The translations under genes and the position numbers were made by a program. Below the pieces are notes generated by a model, which was not told the DNA's origin, ran no database searches, and saw only the letters and a list, made by a program, of their open reading frames with translations. Positions 4,333 through 58,350 of a stretch of 64,000 bases of DNA are shown here, piece after piece; the first letter of the stretch is position 1, and each line of letters begins with the position of its first letter. Source of the DNA: Hyphomicrobiales bacterium (GTDB taxonomy: Bacteria > Pseudomonadota > Alphaproteobacteria > Rhizobiales > Rhizobiaceae); assembly GCA_900472175.1 (NCBI GenBank), contig UCHD01000017.1, positions 1-64,000 on the forward strand, given 5' to 3'.

Positions 4333-4857
4333 TCAGATCGCCTTGGCGCCGCGGGTCTTGGCCGCCTTGGTGAACTTGCGGATCACCATTTCGCGCTTGA
4401 GCTTGGAAATGTGGTCGATGAACAGCACGCCGTTCAGATGATCGATCTCGTGCTGCAGACAGGTCGCCAAAAGGCCGTCGGCCTTGGCGGTCAGCTTCTT
4501 TCCTTCCAGATCGATGTACTCGACCGTAATCGTCGCCGGCCGCTCGACCTCGGCATAATAATCCGGGATCGACAGGCAGCCCTCTTCGTAGACCGACCGC
4601 TCATCCGACGCCGTCAGGACCTTCGGGTTGATGAAGACCAGAGGCTGCTTGTCCTCGCCTTCTTTCGAGACGTCGATGACCAGCATCTGGCGCGGGACGC
4701 CGATCTGGATCGCCGCAAGGCCGATACCCGGCGCGTCGTACATCGTCTCCAGCATGTCATCCGCCAGACGGCGAATATCGGCATCGACTGTTTCCACCGG
4801 CTGGGACAGCTGGCGCAACACGGGATCGGGAAGAATGATGAGCGGCTTGATGGTCAT
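4333..4857 (-). CDS. def: Peptide deformylase Def
   Basis: Def removes the N-formyl group from nascent proteins on the ribosome. All three deformylase motifs are present: GIGLAA at residues 44-49, EGCLS at 92-96 (metal ligand C94) and HEIDH at 136-140 (two His ligands and the catalytic Glu). The start at 4857 ([15 protein letters not shown]) gives 174 aa, close to the family norm; the 30 residues available upstream in frame are not Def-like. Def is the first gene of the minus-strand group leading through the toxin-antitoxin pair to fmt and truA, and is divergent from rmuC. Confidence 0.97.
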
Positions 4858-49944: not shown

Positions 49945-50409
49945 ATGGCATTGGCAGGCTTGCTGCAGCAGAATGCGATACTTCCGGCCATGAAGGCCAA
50001 TTCGAAGAAGCAGTTGCTTCAGGAATTGGCGGCAAAAGCATCCAAGATCACGGATTTGCCCGAACGGGAAATCTTCGACGTTATCCTTCAGCGCGAACGA
50101 CTGGGCTCGACCGGTGTCGGCAACGGCATTGCCATCCCGCATGGCAAGCTTGGCCACCTGTCGTCGATCGTTGGCATTTTTGCGCGCCTGGAAACACCGG
50201 TCGATTTCGAAGCGCTGGACGACCAGCCGGTCGATCTGGTCTTCCTGCTGCTCGCGCCGGAAGGTGCCGGCGCCGATCATTTGAAGGCATTGTCGCGGAT
50301 CGCACGCGTGTTGCGCGACCCGGAAATGGTCGCTCGTCTGCGTGCGACCGATTCCGCCTCCGCCATCTACGCCTTCCTCAGCGACGATCAGGCCTCCAAC
50401 GCCGCCTGA
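49945..50409 (+). CDS. ptsN: Nitrogen-regulatory PTS protein EIIA(Ntr), PtsN
   Basis: PtsN is the phosphate acceptor of the PTS-Ntr chain (PtsP-NPr-PtsN), which adjusts potassium uptake, ABC transporters and nitrogen responses in rhizobia. The 154-aa EIIA type-2 domain has the phospho-His H66 in GNGIAIPHGKLGHL. The ATG at 49945 is preceded by GAGGA; upstream in-frame sequence runs through the hpf terminator and is not coding. Other PTS-Ntr genes are not in the window. Confidence 0.95.
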   Translation: MALAGLLQQNAILPAMKANSKKQLLQELAAKASKITDLPEREIFDVILQRERLGSTGVGNGIAIPHGKLGHLSSIVGIFARLETPVDFEALDDQPVDLVFLLLAPEGAGADHLKALSRIARVLRDPEMVARLRATDSASAIYAFLSDDQASNAA

Positions 50410-50418
50410 TCCGATCCC

Positions 50419-51225
50419 TCAATACAGGTTATGCTGATTGAGATGGTCGATGAAAATGCGAAACAGCTCCGCCTGGCTGGAAATGGCCAGGCGCTTGTAG
50501 ATGTTCTTGCGGTGAATGCGCACCGTCCCTTCCGAAATGCCGATGCTTTCACCGATCGATGCATTGCTGTGCCCGCGCAGGATAAGCCGCACGATGTTGC
50601 GCTGCTGCAGCGTCAGCCGGTCGGCGCAAAGCCGGCCAAAAGCTTCCTCCATCAGATCATCCTGACCGGCCTGCGGAAATGCGCGGCTTGTCTCGCGCTT
50701 CCAGCTTGACCGGATCGCCGCCTGCACGATCGGTTCGTAGGCGCGCAGGTTCTCCAGCTCGCTGTCGCTGAATCCCGAATGGCCCTTCACCCGCATCAGA
50801 GAATAGGTGGCCGTGACACCGCCATCCAGCGGCACCAGAAATCCGATTTCCTCGACCAGCGATCCTTCCTCCGTCGATACACACGGATGAACCTCCCGCG
50901 AAGTGCTGAACTGCGTGTCAAAAAACTCATCCGGCGCCAGATCCCGCATCCGCCATAGGCCGGCAGGGTGACTGTTGTTGCAGGCGACATAAAACGGATC
51001 GAGCAGATAGGCGCCGCCGAGATAGGCTGCCCAGGCCTTGGGTGCAACATGCCGGGTATATCCGTCATGCAGCAGGAGCGGACGGGCATCGTAGGGAAAG
51101 ACGAAGACGCCGGACAAATCGAAACCGGCGACCTGCCGCAGCATGGCATCGAGCGCTTCGCCGAATCCCGGCGTCGAGAGACCATCGATCAACGCGGCAA
51201 TCTGGCGGGATTCGTCTGGCAGCAA
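50419..51225 (-). CDS. LuxR-family transcriptional regulator (solo)
   Basis: The 268-aa protein has a C-terminal LuxR helix-turn-helix (about 203-260; LTLQQRNIVRLILRGHSNASIGESIGISEGTVRIHRKNIYKRL). The N-terminal region (about 20-180) is a PAS/GAF-like sensor with GAYLLDPFYV; it does not clearly show the residue set of AHL-binding domains, so the ligand is open. No luxI gene is present. It starts at TTG (51225) with AAGGA upstream. It is divergent from the SDR gene with a palindrome between them and is the probable regulator of the SDR-oxidase-TPP cassette. Confidence 0.88.
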   Translation of the reverse strand: MLPDESRQIAALIDGLSTPGFGEALDAMLRQVAGFDLSGVFVFPYDARPLLLHDGYTRHVAPKAWAAYLGGAYLLDPFYVACNNSHPAGLWRMRDLAPDEFFDTQFSTSREVHPCVSTEEGSLVEEIGFLVPLDGGVTATYSLMRVKGHSGFSDSELENLRAYEPIVQAAIRSSWKRETSRAFPQAGQDDLMEEAFGRLCADRLTLQQRNIVRLILRGHSNASIGESIGISEGTVRIHRKNIYKRLAISSQAELFRIFIDHLNQHNLY

Positions 51226-51251
51226 AGCGGACTTTCCTTCGTCAAGCGATC

Positions 51252-51267
51252 TATCCCCTATGGGATA
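51252..51267. promoter_or_regulatory. Candidate operator between LuxR regulator and SDR gene
   Basis: TATCCC and GGGATA flank a 4-base centre, giving a small palindrome 27 bases upstream of the regulator start and 61 upstream of the SDR start. The position fits a LuxR-type site controlling both directions. Confidence 0.4.
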
Positions 51268-51328
51268 TCGACAGCCCCCATTGCGTCAACAATAATCCTT
51301 GAAAAGCAAGAGCACGAGGAGAACGGCA

Positions 51329-52096
51329 ATGGCAGGCAGGCTTTCAGGAAAGACCGCACTGATCAGTGGAGGCGCCGGAGGATGCGGCCTTGCGGCCTCC
51401 CAGCTTTTTGCCCGCGAGGGCGCACGCGTCGGCATCGTTGACCTGCCGCGCAGCAAGGGCGAAGAGGTTGCTGCCCAAATCCGCGCCGAGGGTGGACAGG
51501 CCGTCTTCGCACCGGCGGATGTTTCTGTTTCCTCCGAGGTCAAGACAGCTGTCAAAGCCGTCGAGGATGCGCTTGGAGCGATTACCGTTCTCTTCAATCA
51601 TGCCGGCATTCTCGCCGTCGGACCTTTCCTGGAAACGGAAGAGGATGAGTGGGACCGGCTGATGGCGGTCAACGTGCGCTCGATGTTCCTGATGACCAAG
51701 GCCGTGCTGCCCGGCATGCTGGCGGCCGGTGGCGGCAGCATCGTCTCGACCTCCTCGATCTCGGCCGTTGCCGCGACGCCGATGGAGGTGCTTTACGACA
51801 CGACCAAGGGGGCCTGCCACATGTTCGCCCGGGCGATTGCGGTGGAATTCCGCGACCGCGGTATCCGCTCAAACGCTGTCTGCCCCGGCTTCATCGCCAC
51901 CGACCACGGCAAGCGCGAACTGGTCGGCCTTGCCAAATATGGCGTCGATGTTTCCGATGCGGCAATTGCCGCCCAGCAGGGCCGGATGTGTGATCCGATG
52001 GAGGTGGCGCAAGCCGCGCTGTTCCTGGCGAGTGATGAGTCGAGCTTCGTCAACGGCACGCATCTGTTTGTCGACAACTGCTTCACGGCGGTCTGA
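51329..52096 (+). CDS. Short-chain dehydrogenase/reductase
   Basis: The 255-aa classical SDR would oxidise or reduce a hydroxyl/keto group with NAD(P). It shows the nucleotide-binding SGGAGGCGLAAS (about 13-24), NHAGIL in place of the usual NNAG, the catalytic Ser in VSTSSIS and the YDTTK (YxxxK) motif. Asp 37 in IVDLPRS at the end of beta-2 suggests NAD preference. GGAG precedes the ATG at 51329; 10 codons further upstream in frame are ignored. It is the first gene after the divergent LuxR, 23 bases ahead of the FAD oxidase, so they are likely one operon. Substrate unknown. Confidence 0.9.
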   Translation: MAGRLSGKTALISGGAGGCGLAASQLFAREGARVGIVDLPRSKGEEVAAQIRAEGGQAVFAPADVSVSSEVKTAVKAVEDALGAITVLFNHAGILAVGPFLETEEDEWDRLMAVNVRSMFLMTKAVLPGMLAAGGGSIVSTSSISAVAATPMEVLYDTTKGACHMFARAIAVEFRDRGIRSNAVCPGFIATDHGKRELVGLAKYGVDVSDAAIAAQQGRMCDPMEVAQAALFLASDESSFVNGTHLFVDNCFTAV

Positions 52097-52119
52097 ACAA
52101 TCAAGGGGAGAATGGGATC

Positions 52120-53355
52120 ATGATGGAAGCAGGCGGCCACTGGCGCAACTGGGTGGGAAATCAATCGTGCATCGTCCGGCACCGGGGCGCGCCCGACAGC
52201 GAGGCGGCTCTGGCCGAAATGGTCCGGGAGGCAACCTCGAACGGTTTGAACGTTCGCTGTGCCGGTTCGGGCCATTCGTTCACGCCGGTGGCACTGACGA
52301 GCGGGCTACACCTGACGCTCTCTGGCCTGCAGGGCATCAGCCATATCGACACGGCGCGCAAGCGCGTCTCCGTCCATGCCGGCACGACGATCAACACGCT
52401 CGGCAAGGCGTTGAAGCGCAACGGCCTGTCGATGATCAACCAGGGCGACATCGACAGCCAGGCGCTGGCGGGCGCGCTGACCACCGGAACCCACGGCACT
52501 GGCATCAAGCTTGGCAACATGGCCTCGCAGATCGTCGGCATGCGGCTGGTGCAGCCGGATGGCAGCATTCTTGCCATCGATGACAGCGAACCGGACATGC
52601 TGAACGCCGCCCGCGTTTCCATCGGCATGCTCGGCGTCATCTCCGAGATCACCCTGCAGGTGATGGACAGCTACAATCTGCATGAAAAGCTGTGGCGTTG
52701 CACCTTTGACGAATGCATGGAGCAACATGACGATCTGGCCGCCAACCACCGGCATTTCGGCTTCTTCTGGTGCCCGGTGCCGGAAAGCCGCCATTGCTAC
52801 TGCCTGCCGGACACATCCTCGGTCTCGACCACGACGAGCCTTTCCGACGTCTGCGAGATGAAAACCATCGACATCACCGATCAGCCGCCGATGGAGAGCG
52901 CCTTCGAGAAGATCGCTTATTCCTCGGAAATCTACCCGATTGAATATGTGCCGAACTTCCACGAACTCGAATACGCCGTGCCGGTCAAATACGGCAAGCA
53001 GGCCTGCACGGAAGTGCGCAAGCTGATGCTGGAGAAACATCCGACCTGCATCTACCCGATCGAATACCGCTTCACCGCCGGCGACGGCGGCTGGATCAGC
53101 CCGTTCTTCGAACAGGATTCGATCACGCTGTCGGTCTCGGGCCAGCCCGGCACGGATTACTGGAACTATCTCAAGGACGTCGACGATATCCTGCGCCAGT
53201 TCGGCTCCCGCCCGCATTGGGGCAAGCTACATTTCCTCGGCGCCGAGGATGTGACGGCGCTTTATCCCCGCGCCGGGGATTTCCGGGCGCTGCGCAACAA
53301 GCTCGATCCGGAAGGGCGGTTCCTGAATGATCACTTGAAACAGTTGTTTGGGTAA
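52120..53355 (+). CDS. FAD-linked sugar-lactone/alditol oxidase (D-arabinono-1,4-lactone oxidase family)
   Basis: The 411-aa protein has an N-terminal FAD-binding PCMH domain (about 14-185) with AGSGHSFTP, whose H52 is placed to bind FAD covalently, and GALTTGTHGTG. The C-terminal ALO domain (about 190-411) ends with an HWGK motif (RPHWGKLHF), the family's HWxK signature. Relatives oxidise L-gulono-, L-galactono- or D-arabinono-lactone or free alditols such as xylitol, making hydrogen peroxide or passing electrons on. An AAGGGGAG site precedes two adjacent ATGs (52120, 52123). Substrate cannot be read; the cassette around it suggests polyol or sugar-acid breakdown. Confidence 0.88.
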   Translation: MMEAGGHWRNWVGNQSCIVRHRGAPDSEAALAEMVREATSNGLNVRCAGSGHSFTPVALTSGLHLTLSGLQGISHIDTARKRVSVHAGTTINTLGKALKRNGLSMINQGDIDSQALAGALTTGTHGTGIKLGNMASQIVGMRLVQPDGSILAIDDSEPDMLNAARVSIGMLGVISEITLQVMDSYNLHEKLWRCTFDECMEQHDDLAANHRHFGFFWCPVPESRHCYCLPDTSSVSTTTSLSDVCEMKTIDITDQPPMESAFEKIAYSSEIYPIEYVPNFHELEYAVPVKYGKQACTEVRKLMLEKHPTCIYPIEYRFTAGDGGWISPFFEQDSITLSVSGQPGTDYWNYLKDVDDILRQFGSRPHWGKLHFLGAEDVTALYPRAGDFRALRNKLDPEGRFLNDHLKQLFG

Positions 53356-53490
53356 TATTATGCAGTCTGGCCGTCGCGACAGATAATGCACTGCCACGCA
53401 AATTGTTGGGAGACGGTGAGCGTGGTAGAGACATCAAGCGCTCATCGTTCGTGAGCGATCTCGCGGAAATGGGCGGATGGGAGGCTGACC

Positions 53491-55044
53491 ATGAACGGTG
53501 CTGATATTCTGTGCGACGTGCTGTTGGCCAATGACGTCAATGTCTGTTTCGCCAATCCCGGCACGTCGGAAATGCATTTTGTCGCGGCTCTCGATCGCCG
53601 GCCGGACATGCGCTGCGTGCTGGGGCTTTTCGAAGGCGTTGTGACGGGTGCTGCCGACGGTTATGCGCGAATGACCGGCCGTCCGGCCGCGACGCTGCTT
53701 CACACAGGACCGGGATTGGCAAACGGGCTCGCCAACCTTCACAACGCCCGGCGTGCCCGCATTCCCATGATCAATGTCGTCGGCGACCATGCCTCCTACC
53801 ATCTTCCTCTCGACGCGCCGCTGACATCGGATATCGAGAGCCTGGCTGCGCCGATGTCCAACTGGGTACGGCGGATCGAAGGCCCGGACGACGTAGCCGC
53901 GGCAACGAAAGCCGCGATCGAGGCCTCGCTGGCGCCTCCGGGTATCGCGACCCTCATCCTTCCTGGCGACGCGGCGTGGGGCGAGGCACGGCCGCCTGCA
54001 TCGGCCGTCATCAACCGGCCCCAGCCTTCTGCCATCAAGAGTGAGGCAATCCGCAGTGCAACGGAAGCGATCCGCAAAGCCCGCGGCCGGAGTGCAATCC
54101 TTGTCAGGGGATTGGCAGCACAGGCTGATGCCCTCGAGATCGCCGGACAAATTTCGGCGGCACTCGATGTGCGCCTGTTCACCGAAGTTCAGGTGGCTCA
54201 CATGCAGCGCGGTGCCGGCCGTGTCGCGCCGGCCCGCATTCCCTACCCGATCGACGCGGCGCTGGAGGTCCTGGCCGATATCGACGTTCTCGTCCTCGCC
54301 GGCGCGCGGGAGCCGGTGGCTTTCTTCGCTTATCCCGACAAGCCCGGGCGGCTCGTTCACAAAGACTGCCAGGTTCTGACCTTGGCTGATCATGGCGAGG
54401 ACCTGAAAACGGCGCTGGAACAACTCCGCGATGAATTGGGAATCAAAAGCTCCCAGGCCGTACTGCTGGCAAAGACACTCCCGGATGAAGGGCGGCCCAG
54501 CGGAGCGTTGACGGAAGATGCAGTCGCTGTGATCGTGGCGCAAAAACTTCCGGACAATGCCATCGTTTGCGATGAAGCCATTACCTCCGCGCGACGGTTC
54601 TTTTCACTGTCGCAACAGTCGGCGCCTCATGATTTCATGATGAACACCGGCGGTGCCATCGGTATCGGCATCCCCTTGTCCATCGGAGCCGCGATCGCAT
54701 GCCCGGACCGCAAGGTCTTGAACCTTCAGGCTGACGGAAGCGGGATGTATACCATTCAGGGCCTGTGGACCCAGGCGCGGGAAAATCTCGACATTATCAC
54801 CATCGTCTTCGCCAACCGCACCTATGCCGTGCTGCATGGCGAAATGCGCAATGTCGGGGTTCAGACCATTGGGGAAAACGCCCGGAAAATGCTGGATCTC
54901 GACAATCCGGCGCTGGACTGGGTGTCGATGGCAAAGGGAATGGGCGTCGAAGCGGCGCGTGCCAGCTCCTGCGAGGCGTTCATCTCTCTCCTCGACCATG
55001 CGCTGTCGCGCCATGGGCCGTTCTTGATTGAGGCCGTTATCTGA
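53491..55044 (+). CDS. Thiamine-diphosphate-dependent enzyme, acetolactate synthase/benzoylformate decarboxylase-like
   Basis: The 517-aa protein has the three-domain fold of the pyruvate-decarboxylase group: PYR domain with catalytic Glu 48 in LGLFEGVVTGAADGYARM, a central domain (about 185-310) and a PP domain (about 350-515) with the Mg/ThDP motif QADGSGMYTIQGLW ending in FANRTY. Canonical proteins have GDG; here it is ADG. It is shorter than true acetohydroxyacid synthases (about 570-590 aa), and no small subunit lies nearby, so branched-chain synthesis is unlikely. GGGAGG precedes the ATG. A 135-base gap from the oxidase leaves co-transcription open. Confidence 0.85.
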   Translation: MNGADILCDVLLANDVNVCFANPGTSEMHFVAALDRRPDMRCVLGLFEGVVTGAADGYARMTGRPAATLLHTGPGLANGLANLHNARRARIPMINVVGDHASYHLPLDAPLTSDIESLAAPMSNWVRRIEGPDDVAAATKAAIEASLAPPGIATLILPGDAAWGEARPPASAVINRPQPSAIKSEAIRSATEAIRKARGRSAILVRGLAAQADALEIAGQISAALDVRLFTEVQVAHMQRGAGRVAPARIPYPIDAALEVLADIDVLVLAGAREPVAFFAYPDKPGRLVHKDCQVLTLADHGEDLKTALEQLRDELGIKSSQAVLLAKTLPDEGRPSGALTEDAVAVIVAQKLPDNAIVCDEAITSARRFFSLSQQSAPHDFMMNTGGAIGIGIPLSIGAAIACPDRKVLNLQADGSGMYTIQGLWTQARENLDIITIVFANRTYAVLHGEMRNVGVQTIGENARKMLDLDNPALDWVSMAKGMGVEAARASSCEAFISLLDHALSRHGPFLIEAVI

Positions 55045-55093
55045 CGGGTAACCGCAAGACCCCGAGAGCCTTACGTCAAACCTGCGTGACCAG

Positions 55094-55208
55094 GTTTTCC
55101 CTCCCCCTTGATGGGGGAGGTCGGAGCGAAGCTTGGGGGGAATGAGGGGGTACAAAGATCACCCCACCCCGGCACTGCGTGCCGGCCCTTTCCCTCAAGG
55201 AGAGGGTA
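55094..55208. repeat. RIME-like palindromic intergenic repeat
   Basis: This gene-free segment has three stem-loops: CCTCCCCC with GGGGGAGG (55100-55120), CCGGCAC with GTGCCGG (55169-55185), and CCTC/GAGG-type pairing at 55192-55206. The G/C-run style and palindromic arms are typical of short repeats scattered through Rhizobiaceae genomes. It ends four bases before the grpE stop and separates the TPP gene from grpE, possibly acting as a convergent terminator. Confidence 0.65.
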
Positions 55209-55212
55209 AAAA

Positions 55213-55827
55213 TCAGGCGGCCGGGGTTTCGTCTGTTGCGGGCGCCTTCGGGCCACCCTTGGCGACGCCAACCATGGCCGGGCGCAGGACGCGTTCGCCG
55301 ATCGTGTAACCGGCCTGAACGACCTGGACGACAGTGTTGTTCGGAACTTCCGGATTCGGAACTTCGAACATCGCCTGATGGAAGTTCGGGTCGAACTTCT
55401 GGCCGACCGGCTCCAGCTTCTGGACGCCATGGCGCTCAAGCGCCGACAGCATCGCGCGTTCGGTCATTTCAACGCCCTCGATCAGGGAGTTCAGACCAAC
55501 ATCACCAGCTTCGCGGGCTTCGGCCGGAATGGCATCGAGCGCGCGGCGAAGGTTGTCCGAAACGGCCAGCATGTCGCGGGCAAAACCGGCGACGGAATAG
55601 GACTTGGCATCCTTCACGTCGCGGGCAGTGCGGCGGCGCAGGTTGTCCATTTCGGCGGCAAGGCGCAGGTAGCGGTCGCGCATGTCGGCCGCTTCGGCCT
55701 TGGCAAGCTCCAACGGATCCGGCTCGGAAACGGCTGCCTCGACCTGCTCATCGGTGGCCTCTGCATAGGCTGCAGCGGCTTCGTCCGCGTTCACTTCAGC
55801 ACCATGTTTGTTCATATCGTCGGTCAT
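55213..55827 (-). CDS. grpE: Co-chaperone nucleotide exchange factor GrpE
   Basis: GrpE releases ADP from DnaK. The 204-aa protein has an acidic Ala/Glu-rich start, a long coiled coil (about 45-100; [24 protein letters not shown]-like segment) and the C-terminal beta domain (about 135-190; [39 protein letters not shown]). The start at 55827 has GGAGACCG upstream; 23 more codons are open but unconserved. It lies 115 bases downstream of hrcA on the same strand, the usual hrcA-grpE order. Confidence 0.95.
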
Positions 55828-57933: not shown

Positions 57934-58350
57934 ATGACCGCGCCGTTTGAAGGCATTCTGGAGACGGCGCTCTATGTGGACGATCTCGACAAGGCGGAGG
58001 CGTTTTACGGCTCCGTTCTCGGTCTTGAGAAAATCAGCCGCGCAGGAAACCGGCATATCTTCTTTCGCTGCGGCCCCGGCGTTTTGCTGATCTTCAATCC
58101 GGCCGAGACGATCAAGCCCCCGCCGGCAGACGGCCTGCAAGTTCCGCCGCACGGGGCACATGGAAACGGGCATATGTGCTTGCGGGTCGCGAAAGGCCAG
58201 CTCGCGGCCTGGGAAGACAAACTGAAGGCTGCGGGCGTCGCGATCGAGAACGATGTGCATTGGCCATCCGGCTCCCGATCCTTCTACTTCCGCGATCCGG
58301 CTGGAAACAGCCTGGAATGCGCCGAAGCCAGTCTCTGGGCTATCGACTGA
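57934..58350 (+). CDS. VOC-family (glyoxalase/bleomycin-resistance fold) protein
   Basis: The 138-aa protein has two beta-alpha-beta-beta-beta repeats of the vicinal oxygen chelate fold: [23 protein letters not shown] at the start and [24 protein letters not shown] near the end. Metal-ligand candidates are a His in GHMCLRV and Glu in LECAE. Substrate is unknown; annotations of glyoxalase or fosfomycin resistance would be over-precise. It is squeezed between rph and rdgB and probably shares their transcript. Confidence 0.85.

Follow-up and report, generated by a model that had tools for sequence, protein, structure and literature searches.

Between ptsN and grpE in a member of the Rhizobiaceae, a solo LuxR-type regulator stands beside a short-chain dehydrogenase/reductase (SDR) and a flavin adenine dinucleotide (FAD) oxidase, and comparison across bacterial genomes suggests that these three genes are a conserved unit. 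We propose, giving the idea close to an even chance, that this unit serves the catabolism of a small ethanolamine-class amino alcohol, leaving aside the precise compound and the order of the steps; the class is named because relatives of the oxidase are linked exactly to an EutH-type permease in two other genera. The window, meaning the whole stretch of DNA that was analysed, comprises the first 64,000 nucleotides of contig UCHD01000017.1 (assembly GCA_900472175.1), and its host genus is Pararhizobium in the GTDB sense, with the nearest named loci in Rhizobium sp. Root1334, Pararhizobium sp. YC-54, R. herbae and their relatives. The original prediction placed four open frames between ptsN and grpE, which is confirmed, and read them as one cassette in which, plausibly, a polyol or lactone is oxidised, dehydrogenated to a 2-keto acid and cleaved by a thiamine diphosphate (ThDP) enzyme.

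Conservation of the regulator, dehydrogenase and oxidase

The SDR gene (51329-52096, plus strand, ATG at 51329) encodes a classical dehydrogenase of 255 aa (adh_short_C2, 190.7 bits), and 23 bp separate it from the gene for a 411 aa FAD oxidase of the ALO/AldO type (52120-53355, plus strand). Each of the 26 genus genomes has the oxidase, at 91-99% identity and in one case in two pieces, and in each the SDR gene adjoins it with ptsN and grpE flanking; this is seen directly in the window and by tblastn in the other 25, where the two genes are some 20 to 530 bp apart (SDR queries started at 51335, leaving out the first two residues). The regulator gene (50419-51225, minus strand) is full length in 7 of the 26, window included (G000, G175, G211, G212, G213, G218 and G219), and a fragment is left in G215.

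The SDR and oxidase genes also occupy this slot in Ensifer/Sinorhizobium and their allies. Counts at named loci rest on the best 80 of 188, with 50 in the ptsN-grpE slot and 30 elsewhere. In the slot the SDR gene is present at 50/50 and luxR at 24/50; outside it the SDR gene accompanies the oxidase at 25/30, luxR is present at 17/30 and EutH at 12/30, so that luxR stands beside SDR and oxidase at 41 of the 80. The loci outside the slot include Pseudomonas, Paracoccus, Halomonas, Acidiphilium, Brucellaceae and Gordonia, with oxidase identities of 66-74%, a spread over classes and phyla that suggests transfer. These counts of LuxR, SDR, oxidase and transporter genes were made by tblastn because the home-made codon-score caller used for neighbouring genes proved unreliable: it misplaces starts, misses or miscalls some genes, and found no oxidase in loci L184, L218, L276-L278 and L288.

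Association with EutH and other amine-type genes

The most frequent neighbour found outside the ptsN-grpE slot is the EutH permease, identified by NF011668 (615.6 bits against a cut-off of 575) and also by PF04346. Of 121 sampled genomes of Paracoccus, to which P. onubensis belongs, 8 carry the oxidase and the same 8 carry EutH, the two matches lying 59-71 bp apart; were the genes distributed at random the probability of this would be 1e-12, kinship being ignored. In 199 Pseudomonas genomes, again one genus, the oxidase occurs in 8 and EutH in 23, and all 8 carry both within about 3.4 kb, in varied gene order (hypergeometric probability 9e-9, likewise ignoring kinship). In the window's class EutH is uncommon, with 1 of 289 genomes carrying it. 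The RefSeq annotation of P. yeei gives the order helix-turn-helix, SDR, 'D-arabinono-1,4-lactone oxidase', eutH. Some of the other Pseudomonas EutH copies lie beside EutB, EutA or aldehyde dehydrogenase; these three, like the fuconolactonase-like, altronate-dehydratase-like and ATP-binding cassette (ABC) genes mentioned below, carry names from our own reading of the sequences and not from a Pfam or NCBIfam run.

Further genes suggestive of amine metabolism are scattered among the loci, each in one or two lineages. They comprise an aminobutyraldehyde dehydrogenase in L305 (783.5 bits against a cut-off of 615), a BCCT transporter in L302 (428.3 against 407.55), HODM in L285 and sarcosine oxidase alpha in L183. 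Below their cut-offs are a GbcA-like oxygenase in L294 (508.8 of 670) and, in L181, a Fae-like protein (112.6 of 118.05) and weakly a ProX-like protein (50.3 of 215). An APC permease is a further neighbour, in L282, L290 and L305 and weakly in L291. In S. meliloti the SDR-oxidase pair has phaP1 on one side and a LysR/methylmalonate-semialdehyde dehydrogenase pair on the other, a setting uninformative about amines.

Catalytic residues of the oxidase

Family matches of the oxidase are ALO (132.4 bits), FAD_binding_4 (87.6 bits) and TIGR01679 bact_FAD_ox, to which it belongs at 343 bits against a cut-off of 292.25. Its AlphaFold2 (AF2) model, with a predicted local distance difference test (pLDDT) score of 81.5, is about as close to alditol oxidases as to GalDH, and His52, noted in the original prediction as of covalent-FAD type, aligns with the flavin-linked His45 of the alditol oxidase 8ot8. 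Glu315, Arg317 and Lys369 align with the Glu, Arg and Lys of the same enzyme, and Gly109 with G113 of 8qnc, the gatekeeper position at which Gly reportedly marks oxidases and Ala dehydrogenases (PMC11099136). On the strength of the His, Glu, Arg, Lys and Gly109 alignment, an oxidation yielding H2O2 is likely.

The active-site set of AldO adds to Glu, Arg and Lys the residues Ser103, which hydrogen-bonds flavin N5, His118, Gln295 and His350 (PMC10771423). This set is incomplete here, with Asp110 in place of Ser103 and Ser338 in place of His350, and Gln295 corresponds to Glu282 only if the alignment is carried two residues further. The pocket does not identify a substrate, because the unusual Asp110 is also found in distant homologs; Ser338 and Ser340 alone separate close from distant homolog groups, with one exception. 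Compared with AldO (2vfr, 8ot8) and GULO/ALO/GalDH (8qnb), the oxidase is alike in fold, covalent-type His, Glu-Arg pair and Lys, yet it is only 21-24% identical to them, differs from AldO at the two substituted positions, and is set apart from all of them by its linkage to EutH in some genera. A second and distant homolog (33-38%) is encoded elsewhere in the window's own genome (G000 C32:3146-4405).

The LuxR solo and its operator

The regulator has a GerE DNA-binding domain (48 bits against a cut-off of 23.5) that places it in the LuxR/FixJ superfamily, and no match to the autoinducer-binding domain PF03472 even at E 0.1. The best PDB match to its AF2 model (pLDDT 77.2) is the ligand domain of VqsR, 5xhx, at about 26% identity, followed by quorum-sensing receptors. 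It is thus like VqsR in the fold of its ligand domain and like VqsR and the PAB-type solos such as PipR in having no luxI partner, but differs from these in giving no match to PF03472 and in its SDR and oxidase neighbours. A published survey of LuxR solos defined them by PF03472 (PMC10134790).

In the gap between luxR and the SDR gene lies TATCCCCTATGGGATATCGACAG, beginning at 51252, which contains the dyad TATCCC-CTAT-GGGATA (51252-51267, plus strand), with conservation continuing into TCGAC. The end of the dyad directly abuts TCGACA, which with AATAAT 17 bases further on forms a candidate sigma-70-like promoter of the SDR gene (51268-51296, plus strand) matching at 10 of 12 positions. It is the only such match in 50300-55300, and taken alone is weak evidence for a promoter because 1.2 are expected by chance. 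The operator can be made out in Ensifer, Brucellaceae, Paracoccus, Sinorhizobium medicae and Gordonia, and also before eutH in Pseudomonas (L284). The strict pattern TATNNCYYNYRKNATATNGAC, counted on the same loci from which it was derived, matches 30 of the 41 named loci with LuxR and 1 of the 39 lacking it, and the reversed pattern none; eleven LuxR-bearing loci are missed (L269, L282, L285, L286, L290, L291, L294, L295, L296, L298 and L302), and looser patterns recover the site in L291, L294 and L295. Across the 26 whole genomes of the genus the pattern matches 10 times, 8 of them at this locus, with a control of zero. A wider LuxR regulon was considered and set aside, as the two extra sites (one in G199, the other in G000 C12, where it falls within a GST-like called frame that has a LysR-like gene as its neighbour) have no full dyad and were taken as chance. 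The position of the operator suggests an activator site with a single recognisable target in this genus. In G215 the operator is still intact beside the luxR remnant (L160, about 4457-4605, oriented), and S. meliloti L287 keeps an operator with no LuxR match.

The ThDP gene

The fourth frame (53491-55044, plus strand) encodes a ThDP enzyme of the PRK07586 family (TPP_enzyme_N/C, 104.2/91.2 bits; NF005760, 742.3 bits against a cut-off of 363), a full-length match to the model named 'acetolactate synthase large subunit', with the catalytic Glu48 present in 64/64 relatives. Two features singled out in the original prediction are ordinary for this family: the protein, called shortened, has 517 aa against a 514-position model, and its ADG motif, called a variant, is found in 57 of 64 aligned relatives, the other 7 having GDG. 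A close relative is found at this place in 8 of the 26 genus genomes, and among the matches listed there is no second one in those 8. The gene is broken in G212 (L155), where rpoN, ptsN and hrcA are broken in the same stretch, which suggests poor assembly.

Outside the genus, 58 ThDP loci of 43-76% identity were taken from 199 genomes of the family, excluding a partial G051 match and weaker ones. None of the 58 has the oxidase in its fetched flanks, some of which end at contig ends, and SDR relatives of only 28-31% occur in two. Their neighbours are varied and by our reading form several sets, for example one in which ABC transporters accompany a dipeptidase-like gene and another of CoA-transferase, aldolase and kinase genes, with 5 of the 58 unmapped. 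On these counts the ThDP gene was rejected as a member of the unit; it looks like a passenger, a local extra with another job.

Proposed function and alternatives

The compound transformed by the module would be ethanolamine, an N-methylated ethanolamine, a choline-like compound or an amino diol. By binding this compound or its product, the LuxR solo would activate the SDR-oxidase transcript from the operator abutting the -35 box. The SDR and the oxidase would convert the alcohol to the aldehyde and on to the acid by a cobalamin-free route, with NADH and H2O2 as by-products and oxygen as the presumed acceptor. No importer is seen in the ptsN-grpE slot, and uptake would therefore be supplied in trans. 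Relative to ethanolamine utilisation through EutH and EutBC, the systems would share an EutH-type permease in other genera and probably an ethanolamine-class substrate, but here two oxidoreductases would replace the B12 lyase under a LuxR regulator; EutBC was not found between ptsN and grpE, the remaining genome not having been searched for it. A broader claim is rather doubtful, namely that B12-independent oxidation of ethanolamine-class amino alcohols reached Alphaproteobacteria, Gammaproteobacteria and Actinomycetota, presumably through horizontal transfer, under a LuxR switch whose VqsR-like domain senses a nutrient amine in place of a quorum signal, and that it became fixed in Pararhizobium as a core locus.

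Several observations weigh against the amino-alcohol proposal. The window shows no importer by the unit, and NF011668 detects no EutH in the window's own genome. The one EutH copy in the class sample does not adjoin the oxidase, and no EutH shows at 18 of the 30 named loci situated elsewhere than in the slot. Four Pseudomonas loci (L351-L354) have SDR, EutH and a VqsR-like LuxR without the oxidase, of which those genomes gave no match at E 1e-100, and homologs of 37-42% identity occur in other contexts. Asp110 and Glu282, tried as an active-site mark of amine substrates, were rejected because both are kept in 30%-identical homologs, and several of the amine-type neighbours lie some genes away and may be there by chance. 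Two loci of one genus (L177, L180) have fuconolactonase-like and altronate-dehydratase-like genes after the oxidase, and a sugar-type ABC ATPase (cluster c7) stands 5-8 kb off in L181, L183, L297 and L300.

These last neighbours, together with the alditol/aldonolactone family, fold and conserved catalytic residues of the oxidase, favour the explanation that the two enzymes have a sugar alcohol, a sugar acid or an aldonolactone as their substrate, and that the EutH, APC and BCCT transporters import something else or have broadened specificity. We consider this unlikely, the sugar-type neighbours being few or distant when set against the exact EutH linkage in two genera; those few sugar-acid-type neighbours fit the polyol or lactone substrate first suggested for the locus better, although in other genomes no linkage is stronger than that to an ethanolamine-type permease. 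A signal-processing device, in which LuxR senses a plant ethanolamine derivative that the SDR and oxidase inactivate, has a precedent in PipR, which reportedly senses HEHEAA, an ethanolamine derivative (PMC10134790). The plant association of several hosts, the permease linkage and the single recognisable target of the solo in the genus are consistent with such a device, but the regulator lacks PF03472, no pip peptidase is seen as a neighbour and some hosts, such as Paracoccus yeei from human samples, are not plant-associated, which makes it improbable.

A single pathway of all four genes, with ThDP-dependent cleavage as its last step, is very improbable. In its favour, the oxidase and ThDP genes are on the same strand in the window, 135 bp apart, and in Rhizobium sp. 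CF080 (L299), the one exception and from another set of loci, about 6.6 kb separates the oxidase from a 53% ThDP relative. The distribution of the ThDP gene leaves the cleavage pathway almost without genomic support, SDR and oxidase being universal in the genus and the ThDP gene sporadic; nor does the regulator occur throughout, and the four-gene cassette is not confirmed. What survives of the original prediction is an uncharacterised unit of LuxR solo, dehydrogenase and covalent-FAD-type oxidase, which do co-occur in relatives; the ThDP enzyme fails this test of co-occurrence and is not supported as a step. The boundary was set one gene too far, and the chemistry was derived from family names.

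If the amino-alcohol proposal is true, the annotation 'D-arabinono-1,4-lactone oxidase' covers, in a defined clade, genes of amine and not of sugar metabolism, a widely shared LuxR family that would escape a PF03472-based survey senses a metabolite and has an operator that can be read, and a core nutrient trait of rhizobia gains a name. Both the enzymatic and the regulatory claim are cheaply testable, with one promoter, two enzymes and a short substrate list. Among the papers listed by literature searches, some of them on broad terms and none covering subscription journals, no title or abstract describes such a module. Of four Sinorhizobium gene numbers tried as a route to mutant data, SMc00777 alone turned up in the papers searched, and the route was given up.

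Other features of the region

The base composition of the four-gene stretch is that of the remaining window. Intergenic palindromic CTCCCCCTTGA-type repeat elements lie at 55100-55215, between the ThDP gene and grpE; similar elements occupy much of the oxidase-grpE gap in several relatives without the ThDP gene, L151 not being among them. A VOC-family gene (57934-58350) follows rph and stands beside it in every stretch of the genus that reaches that far.

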